Assembly: GCF_000710615.1 (NCBI RefSeq)
Contig: NZ_JDTH01000001.1
Span: forward strand, 868,001 to 932,000
DNA length: 64,000 bases
Direction of reading: 5' to 3'
Source: Haladaptatus cibarius D43
GTDB lineage: Archaea; Halobacteriota; Halobacteria; Halobacteriales; Haladaptataceae
Below the pieces are notes generated by a model that was not told the origin of the DNA, ran no database searches, and saw only the letters and a program-made list of their open reading frames with translations. Positions 14,712-17,649 of the stretch are shown in pieces (the stretch's first letter is position 1; each line of letters starts with the position of its first letter). A program made the position numbers and the translations under genes.

Positions 14712-15122
14712 TACAATCAAATACTGATGAGGGACACGGTTAAGGGTTCCGCATTCGTTTTCAAAACAGGATTTTTACTGTACGAATGTACTGATTAATG
14801 GGCTTTGGATGGCCATTTGGTTATCATTGAGAGGTTTTACGTTGATATACTGCTCTATCCGACACAACGAAGGGAAAATTCCGTACTATCCACAGCTTTC
14901 ATCTCGATACTGTGCCATGTTCTTGTTTCTCACTACTGACCAGCTTCGAAACGATAGTCTCGTGCTTTCGTAATCGGGTGGCCTCGGCACTCATAGGGTT
15001 CGTCACCACCAGCCGCCAGACTAGCTCGGAACGCCTGTTTTCGTCATCGGCCATGCCACGCTACACACCGGAGGGCAAAAAGTCACGCCAAAACACTTGC
15101 CGCCAGCCACCTTCTATCTCCC
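14712..15122. other. Gene-free gap
   Basis: About 410 bases between the divergent cold-shock and flavin-fold genes. I see no credible coding frame, tRNA or repeat. It is AT-rich close to 14721-14900 and must hold the promoters of both neighbours. Confidence 0.5.
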
Positions 15123-15644: not shown

Positions 15645-15761
15645 TTATTCCACGATGACGCGCCCGTCGCGCTCTACGGTCACGTCGTGACCGAGATAGC
15701 CGAACACCAGTCGCTTTGGGTTACTGAGTTCGGGGGGTTTATACGTCCGATGCAGAGTCAT
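15645..15761 (-). CDS. Short 38-residue protein overlapping the Bat-like gene
   Basis: ATG at 15761 lies inside the end of the HTH-10 gene in another frame (overlap of 23 bases) and gives MTLHRTYKPPELSNPKRLVF, then GYLGHDVTVERDGRVIVE, stop at 15645-15647. The overlap, balanced composition and clean beta-strand-like C-terminus suggest a real coupled small gene, but there is no recognised family. Confidence 0.45.
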   Translation of the reverse strand: MTLHRTYKPPELSNPKRLVFGYLGHDVTVERDGRVIVE

Positions 15762-16404
15762 CATCGATTTCGTACAGCGTACTTTCGAGCAGCGAATCCA
15801 ATCCGCGCCGATACCGGGCCGACAACGCCTGTGGGGTGATGTCGAGTTCCTGTGCGACCTCCGCCAACGTCGCTTGACGTGGTGTTCTAAAGAAGCCCGC
15901 TTGATGCGTCGAAACCAGCGCGTCGTACTGCTCGGACGTGAGGTCGTACTGTCGTTCGCGCATCTCCTGTACCGAATAAACGCGCATCACTTCGAAGGGA
16001 ATCGACCGCGCCGAAAGTTTCTCACGCAACCGACTCGCGGCGGCGTGGGTAGTAAATCGGAACTGGAAATACCAGCCGTCGGACGACCCACAGCCCCCGA
16101 GGAGCGTCGTCTGCCCATCCACGATGATGTCCTGTAATCCGGGTTGGTCGCGATTCCAAGTCATTCGGCAGAGCAACCCCTCGCCAGTATCGTCGAGGAC
16201 GGTGACGGATTCGAGTGCGGGCTCTTCTTCCTCGGTTTCGGCGATTTCGCCCGCACTGACGTTTCGAATCCAGAAAAACGGGAGCAAGCCGTCGTCCGCG
16301 GGGACGAACTGTTCGAGTTCGATATGTGCGTCCGGATACCGTTGGACGAGTTCTCCTAACGGAAATTCGTCCACTGGGATTTCGATTTCGACGATGAAAC
16401 TCAT
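15739..16404 (-). CDS. HTH-10 (bacterio-opsin activator-like) transcription regulator
   Basis: 221 residues. The C-terminal third contains the HTH-10 domain of Bat-like regulators: LTSEQYDALVSTHQAGFFRTPRQATLAEVAQELDITPQALSARYRRGLDSLLESTL (about 155-212). The N-terminal 150 residues form the usual GAF/BAT-associated sensor-like region rich in beta strands. It is a cytoplasmic DNA-binding regulator; targets are unknown. No sensor or opsin gene is adjacent. Confidence 0.88.
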   Translation of the reverse strand: MSFIVEIEIPVDEFPLGELVQRYPDAHIELEQFVPADDGLLPFFWIRNVSAGEIAETEEEEPALESVTVLDDTGEGLLCRMTWNRDQPGLQDIIVDGQTTLLGGCGSSDGWYFQFRFTTHAAASRLREKLSARSIPFEVMRVYSVQEMRERQYDLTSEQYDALVSTHQAGFFRTPRQATLAEVAQELDITPQALSARYRRGLDSLLESTLYEIDDDSASDV

Positions 16405-16479: not shown

Positions 16480-16680
16480 TTGAGAAACTGTGTTGCCGAC
16501 TGCCACGAAGGGCGCGCGTGACGCGAAGTCAGACGCCAGAGACGCTTCGATTAGCCGCAACCCGAAGGCTCGGCTGTCGGGGCCGGTCGGCGGCGGCCCG
16601 TCTCCTGCAAGACCGGGACGTGACTCCGATAGTCCCGGCGGTTCTCTCGAACCGTTGAAACCCGCAGGACACGTCCAAAC
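16480..16680 (-). ncRNA. Candidate structured non-coding RNA
   Basis: No plausible protein is found in this GC-rich gap, but the minus strand forms many perfect stems: TCCTGC/GCAGGA (16603-16608 with 16664-16669) encloses a CGGTTC/GAACCG hairpin with a GAGA (GNRA) loop (16639-16654) and a 7-bp CCGGGAC/GTCCCGG stem (16613-16638). Next come GGGCCG/CGGCCC (16580-16599) and an AGCC..AGCC/GGTT..GGCT hairpin capped by UUCG (16553-16575). GNRA and cUUCGg loops occur only when read on the minus strand. A TATA-like TATTAAAAGG (about 16696-16705) lies about 20-25 bases upstream. It does not show the conserved cores of RNase P, SRP or tRNA that I know. The 3' end is a guess. Confidence 0.5.
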
Positions 16681-16757
16681 TCTCGTCGTCCCCCCTTTTA
16701 ATACCATCTGTTTCCACGAAATCGTATGACGATTTTCGAAAAATCAGGATGAAAAAT

Positions 16758-16887: not shown

Positions 16888-17649
16888 TCACAGTCCCGTC
16901 GGTTCGTCGATGAACGTCGTTTTCAGCCCCCATTCCTCCGCGAGCGACTGGAGCGACTGCACGCCGAACGTCTCGGTTGCGTAGTGTCCCGCGAGGAAGA
17001 CGTTGAGCCCGGCCTCTCGCGCCTCGTGGTACACCTTCTGTTTTCCTTCGCCGGTAATCAGCGCGTCAGCCCCCACGTCGATGGCTTCGTCCAGCCAATC
17101 CACGCCGCTTCCGGTGACGATGGCCACGTCCTCGACTGTTTCGGGGCCGAAATCGAACACCTGAATCGCTTGTCCCCCGGTGTCGAGTTCGTCGGCCAAT
17201 CGCTCCCGGATTTCCTCGACCGTCAGTTTGCCGCGTCCACGCTGGCCGATGTGCTCCGGCCCCATGCTCCCGAAGGGTTCTCTGGAATCGAGTTCGAGGA
17301 GGTCGGCGATTCCCGCCGCATTGCCGAGTTCCGGGTGCGAATCCAGCGGCAGGTGCGAAACGTACAGCGCCACGTCGCTTTCGATGAGCGATGCGATTCG
17401 GTCGTAGTCGCGCCCCGTCACGCGCTCGATGCCGCCCCACGACAGGCCGTGGTGGACGACCAGCGTGTCTGCATCCCACTTCGCGGCATCCTCGATGGTC
17501 TTCTCCGCGGCGTCCACGGCGAAGGCAACGCGCTCTACTTCTTTTTCGTCCGGGCCGACCTGTAATCCGTTCGCGCTCGCGTCCACGTCCGCGAAATCGC
17601 TCGTCCGGAGTCGGTCGTCGTACTCCTCGGTGAGTTCGGCGAGGTTCAT
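16888..17649 (-). CDS. NIF3-family dinuclear metal-centre protein
   Basis: 253 residues, typical of the short archaeal NIF3/YbgI form without the inserted domain. Metal ligands are visible in TLVVHHGLSWGG (tandem His), YVSHLPLDSHPELG, and the C-terminal GHYATETFG (His and Glu). The family forms a toroidal hexamer; its biochemical role is unsettled (GTP cyclohydrolase-like or phosphatase activity has been proposed). The gene stands alone. Confidence 0.9.
   Translation of the reverse strand: MNLAELTEEYDDRLRTSDFADVDASANGLQVGPDEKEVERVAFAVDAAEKTIEDAAKWDADTLVVHHGLSWGGIERVTGRDYDRIASLIESDVALYVSHLPLDSHPELGNAAGIADLLELDSREPFGSMGPEHIGQRGRGKLTVEEIRERLADELDTGGQAIQVFDFGPETVEDVAIVTGSGVDWLDEAIDVGADALITGEGKQKVYHEAREAGLNVFLAGHYATETFGVQSLQSLAEEWGLKTTFIDEPTGL

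Follow-up and report, generated by a model that had tools for sequence, protein, structure and literature searches.

A stand-alone omegaRNA-like guide RNA gene and a co-inherited nuclease-dead TnpB in Haladaptataceae: a probable TldR-like system with its guide encoded in trans

TldRs are a recent discovery. A study of them (PMC13418256) concerns bacteria, and the TldR guide RNA lies in the tldR cassette. The layout of haloarchaeal omegaRNAs is already published as well: the RNAs of IS200/IS605 TnpB elements (omegaRNAs or reRNAs, in haloarchaea sotRNAs) consist of a hairpin scaffold, a pseudoknot of the P2 loop beside the guide and a 3'-terminal guide (PMC12558985).

The locus presented here resembles both. 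With TldRs it shares a TnpB relative with a ruined RuvC site that is vertically kept, and an omegaRNA-like guide RNA which here apparently serves the dead TnpB. In contrast to TldRs, the guide RNA gene is located ~824 kb from the protein gene, the host is an archaeon, and flagellin or another known target partner is absent. With the omegaRNAs of IS200/IS605 elements it shares the scaffold, the pseudoknot and the position of the guide. However, the RNA has neither tnpB nor transposon ends and does not overlap a tnpB 3' end, it has its own TATA promoter and occurs as a single copy at a conserved chromosomal site, and its guide is conserved between species. The literature searched held no report of an archaeal TldR, nor of a TldR with its guide RNA as a separate gene under its own promoter.

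The RNA gene: place, promoter and structure

The window, i.e., the whole stretch of 64,000 nucleotides that was analysed, is part of a haloarchaeal chromosome (G000:C1:868001-932000). The gene, which was delimited by alignments of 28 homologs, the covariance model R1 and covariation, and its surroundings are as follows (positions in the window):

15739..16404, minus strand: Bat-like regulator (BAT + HTH_10), flanking the RNA on the side away from NIF3
16482..16673, minus strand: omegaRNA-like stand-alone guide RNA gene, ~192 nt
16696..16703, minus strand: TATA element (TATTAAAA) of a separate promoter for the RNA, its centre ~26 nt before the RNA 5' end
16888..17649, minus strand: DUF34/NIF3 gene (Pfam PF01784), conserved upstream neighbour of the RNA

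BLASTN revealed homologs of the RNA in all 28 Haladaptataceae genomes examined, which belong to Haladaptatus, Halomicrococcus and Halorussus, with one copy per genome at the same place beside NIF3 in the three genera. The NIF3 gene is found on the 5' side of the RNA and on the same strand in 27/27 near-complete genomes, the gap between them reaching ~4 kb in some; it is a neighbour and not itself part of the RNA system. The Bat-like regulator accompanies the RNA in only part of Haladaptatus (tblastn). Neither tnpB nor a transposon-end sequence was seen near the RNA.

The original prediction of a structured non-coding RNA on the minus strand was borne out by the homologs, the compensatory changes and the conserved promoter element. 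The TATA box, which had been said to lie at the right distance, is conserved in 28/28 homologs (variant TACTAAAA in two), and the putative 5' end of the RNA, at 16673 on the minus strand, lies ~26 nt downstream of it. The statement that no protein frame covers the RNA agrees with our analysis as well, the only minus-strand ORF across it being an 80-aa frame, and none was convincing. The stems with GNRA and cUUCGg loops are present on the minus strand, the GNRA-type loop being GAGA; relatives do not share these loop sequences, which are thus not key evidence for the RNA. The folding energy was unremarkable (z = -0.77 for the minus strand and -1.10 for the plus strand), and because the genome is GC-rich it fails by itself to single out the RNA.

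The structure derived from the 28-sequence alignment consists of eight helices, one of them a pseudoknot. Its elements are the following:

16663-16673 with 16599-16609, minus strand: P1, closing the junction (region 16599..16673), 96% of cells paired, compensatory changes
16639-16654, minus strand: P1a hairpin inside the P1 junction, 97% of cells paired, compensatory changes
16613-16638, minus strand: P1b hairpin inside the P1 junction
16581..16598, minus strand: P2 hairpin, invariant
16586-16591, minus strand: P2 loop, the 5' strand of the pseudoknot (GCCGAC), pairing with 16495-16500
16553..16575, minus strand: P3 hairpin (AGCCGAGCC/GGUUGCGGCU), fully paired (100%), both partners changed in two pairs
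16514..16545, minus strand: P4 hairpin (16542-16545 with 16514-16517 and 16534-16538 with 16519-16523), CG/GC swap at columns 134/165
16495..16500, minus strand: 3' pseudoknot strand (GUCGGC), immediately before the guide, paired in all 28 sequences (100%)

Standard pairs fill 98.7% of cells (49 pairs, 28 sequences), and changes on both sides were found at 14 of the 49 pairs. None of 500 shuffles reached an equally high value on four of the five covariation measures, and sliding the partners lowered the pairing to 29–38%. A compensatory GC/AU pair occurs within the pseudoknot at columns 87/181: its strands read GCCAAC/GUUGGC in Halorussus and GCCGAC/GUCGGC in Haladaptatus and Halomicrococcus. 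The other partner proposed by RNAalifold for the 3' strand (columns 96-100) was rejected, as it is without compensatory change, unlike the P2-loop pseudoknot.

No Rfam family matched the RNA at the gathering threshold, and searches up to E = 10 gave only chance-level matches outside it. Its identification as tRNA, tmRNA or an Rfam family was rejected after these searches; the RNase P RNA (RF00373) and the SRP RNA (RF01857) were each found once, elsewhere in the genome, in line with the earlier remark that the RNA could not be matched to either of these or to a tRNA. The same window carries a box C/D sRNA of the sR-tMet family at 14980-15052 on the minus strand (RF02163, 54.9 bits, above threshold).

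A haloarchaeal H/ACA guide of pseudouridylation has two hairpins with a long spacer (PMC2584109), and the RNA recalls such a guide in its two-part layout and in the ACA that many members have close to the 3' end. However, the ACA is replaced by ACC in 10/28 sequences, and we reject the H/ACA reading since this ANA box is not conserved. For a house-keeping RNA of this or another kind, the RNA also lacks an Rfam match and has full-score homologs in one family only, while RNase P and SRP RNA are encoded elsewhere, so that we find an explanation of this type barely credible.

Kinship with TnpB omegaRNAs

The covariance model R1 was built from the stand-alone RNAs alone and run over 293 genomes of the order. 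It gave 186–222 bits in the near-complete Haladaptataceae genomes, and full-score homologs were present in that family only. Outside the family the matches were weaker, and some are located at canonical tnpB 3' ends. In G103 the match (E = 3e-8) overlaps the 3' end of a tnpB whose protein ends in an ADYNAAKNIG motif; matches at tnpB 3' ends were also obtained in G003 (2.8e-5), G041 (0.0025), G033 (3e-4) and G045 (4e-4). The loci concerned are L068, L096, L100, L135 and L136. Those canonical elements that could be parsed have a P2-like hairpin with the loop GUCAAC, then GUUGAC and then a guide specific to the copy. Set beside the pairs of Halorussus (GCCAAC/GUUGGC) and Haladaptatus (GCCGAC/GUCGGC), the GUCAAC/GUUGAC pair of the insertion sequences shows that two positions of the pseudoknot change in step. 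These matches, together with the published layout of pseudoknot and guide, identify the window RNA, as judged from its sequence, as an omegaRNA relative without tnpB or transposon ends. The original prediction of a new RNA is therefore right in that no Rfam family covers it, but the kind is already known, being a relative of TnpB omegaRNAs separated from its transposon.

Elements that carry an omegaRNA of the same type without tnpB were also observed outside the family. At L064 (2506-2830), L065, L066 and L067 the left ends are IS200/IS605-like (TTCAACTG...GCGGAGTCC), the right end holds the pseudoknot strand and the guide, and no tnpB was found; they are non-autonomous transposons carrying a guide RNA. 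Like the window RNA they have an omegaRNA without tnpB; unlike it, they have retained the motifs of the left end (TTCAACTG...CGCGGAGTCC) and of the right end, and each copy has a different guide.

The existence of such elements in other families would allow the window RNA to be what is left of a decayed transposon, or else a non-autonomous element like them. This is already contradicted by the conservation of the RNA, which is kept as one copy per genome at the same NIF3-adjacent place in three genera, with pairing intact across divergent sequences, a promoter of its own and no transposon-end sequence seen; we regard a remnant as very improbable.

Shorter omegaRNA-like RNAs of ~165 nt were detected as well, at L069 (2524-2691), L070 (2506-2670, minus strand) and L075 (2560-2723, minus strand). 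A genome holds up to four of this type (in G139), and the sequence after each of them is different; a tnpB upstream was not found at the three loci, and a tRNA gene lies nearby in two. They possibly represent another stand-alone or mobile family of guide RNAs.

A nuclease-dead TnpB in the same genomes

The genome of the window contains only one gene of the TnpB family (PF07282), ~824 kb from the RNA:

G000:C1:59710-60948 (locus L106/L107): dead TnpB gene, the sole TnpB-family gene of the genome

Its product has GVALG instead of GVDLG in RuvC-I, AFGEL instead of AFEDL in RuvC-II and NDHYNAA instead of NADYNAA in RuvC-III, i.e., the RuvC-I Asp, the RuvC-II Glu and the RuvC-III Asp are all replaced. 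One ortholog, 63–100% identical, is present in each of the 27/27 near-complete genomes of the family, and the RuvC-II Glu is changed to Gly in all 27. In a profile alignment to solved TnpB/Cas12f chains this Gly falls on the catalytic Glu. All nine Haladaptatus orthologs lack the RuvC-I Asp as well, and four of the nine have in addition lost the RuvC-III Asp. The active site has thus decayed in steps, beginning with the Glu (absent in all members), continuing with the RuvC-I Asp (Haladaptatus) and reaching the RuvC-III Asp in only some. The nearest canonical TnpBs retain Asp-Glu-Asp, and the 27 dead TnpBs form one clade (98/100) beside canonical TnpBs.

The surroundings of the gene are conserved too, with an M50/CBS protease gene upstream in 26/27 (the protease being named from sequence) and a cupin gene downstream in 24/27 (cupin by Pfam). 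To judge from these sequences and their context, the dead TnpB is a domesticated, vertically inherited protein encoded at a stable locus outside a transposon.

As the RNA is found in all 28 genomes examined and the ortholog in the 27 near-complete ones, the RNA and the dead TnpB share one family. In G025, the genome of which is 62% complete, the RNA is present and an ortholog of the dead TnpB was not detected. G019 likewise holds exactly one PF07282 gene, so that for the RNA of G000 and of G019 no TnpB partner other than the dead one is possible. Co-occurrence, together with the apparent derivation of both parts from TnpB and omegaRNA of one lineage, leads us to infer a partnership between the RNA and the protein.

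Since the two genes are far apart and their partnership is deduced, the RNA might be a regulator that no longer needs TnpB, the dead protein being kept for another reason. Against this, the protein-binding scaffold and the pseudoknot of omegaRNAs are retained, and the RNA and the protein are confined to the same family. Moreover, eight of the dead tnpB genes were searched with R1, which gave no match at their 3' ends, so that with no omegaRNA detected beside them the protein would have no guide. An RNA working independently of TnpB therefore seems quite unlikely to us, and a joint system of both parts is the reading that we prefer.

The guide, its possible targets and the proposed mechanism

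The sequence that follows the pseudoknot is the putative guide:

16483..16494, minus strand: 12-nt guide (AACACAGUUUCU), conserved in 28 genomes

The consensus of the family is [A/G]NYAC[A/C]GYUU[U/C][U/C], and across the 28 genomes conservation ends abruptly after position 12. Species vary within the guide at positions 1-3 (AAC, ACC, ATT and ACT, among others) and at position 6 (A or C). The T-rich end of the guide may also serve termination.

The exact 12-mer occurred only at the RNA itself in 6/8 genomes, with one extra site in each of the other two, and k-mers of the guide, searched around both loci (up to 1.5 kb away) in the 27 genomes, revealed no conserved target. Matches of 10 nt were not conserved among Haladaptatus genomes; a single site, the promoter of an alcohol-dehydrogenase-type gene, was shared by G002 and G007. 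At the TATA position of this gene most orthologs of the family (L177-L193) have ACAGTTTTA, which resembles guide positions 4-11. This promoter was rejected as a target, since ACAGTTTTA does not co-vary with the changes in the guide.

In a related group of insertion sequences, TTCAAC directly precedes the left end upstream of tnpB (L206, L212, L216, L217 and L218), and it may be regarded as a candidate TAM of this TnpB lineage. A search of nine genomes with a TAM-like TCAA(N) followed by a 6-nt seed (AACACA) gave no site that was conserved when 30 loci were compared; nor did the matches clearly exceed a reversed-pattern control. A seed or guide of 6 nt suffices in known TldRs (PMC13418256); a target that is short or mismatched would accordingly be missed by such searches.

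The lack of a conserved chromosomal target in the guide searches, and the abundance in haloarchaea of related active TnpBs and omegaRNA-bearing elements, would suit a device against transposons, in which the RNA and the dead TnpB act on invading IS200/IS605 elements, by occupying or competing for their sites and guide scaffolds, instead of regulating a host gene. However, within a genus the guide stays conserved; in transposons, by contrast, the guide is dictated by the insertion site and is different in each copy. Dozens of TnpBs, moreover, are still present in several members of the family. A role of this kind is, in our opinion, unlikely.

The reading that we favour, and hold to be probable, is a vertically inherited TldR-like system in which a nuclease-dead TnpB uses a domesticated omegaRNA encoded in trans, with a guide of ~12 nt. 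The guide RNA would have escaped from its IS200/IS605-type transposon to form an independent gene of the chromosome under its own promoter, and it would load in trans onto the only TnpB-family protein of the genome, encoded ~824 kb away. The dead TnpB would hold the P1–P4 scaffold and the P2-loop pseudoknot, and the ~12-nt guide right after the pseudoknot would steer the complex to matching DNA beside a TAM. Without a working RuvC site the complex would bind its target but leave it uncut, and would thereby repress it or regulate it in another way.

With somewhat less assurance, we think it likelier than the contrary that archaea possess here an RNA-guided transcription factor of their own, built from two loci, the dead TnpB and a remote short-guide RNA, which has been inherited jointly in three genera and regulates either a host gene or DNA outside the chromosome. 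Species of Haladaptatus and Halorussus are culturable, and the reading can be tested there. If true, it would represent an independent domestication of TnpB, with protein and guide now encoded separately, as effector and guide loci are in other RNA-guided systems.
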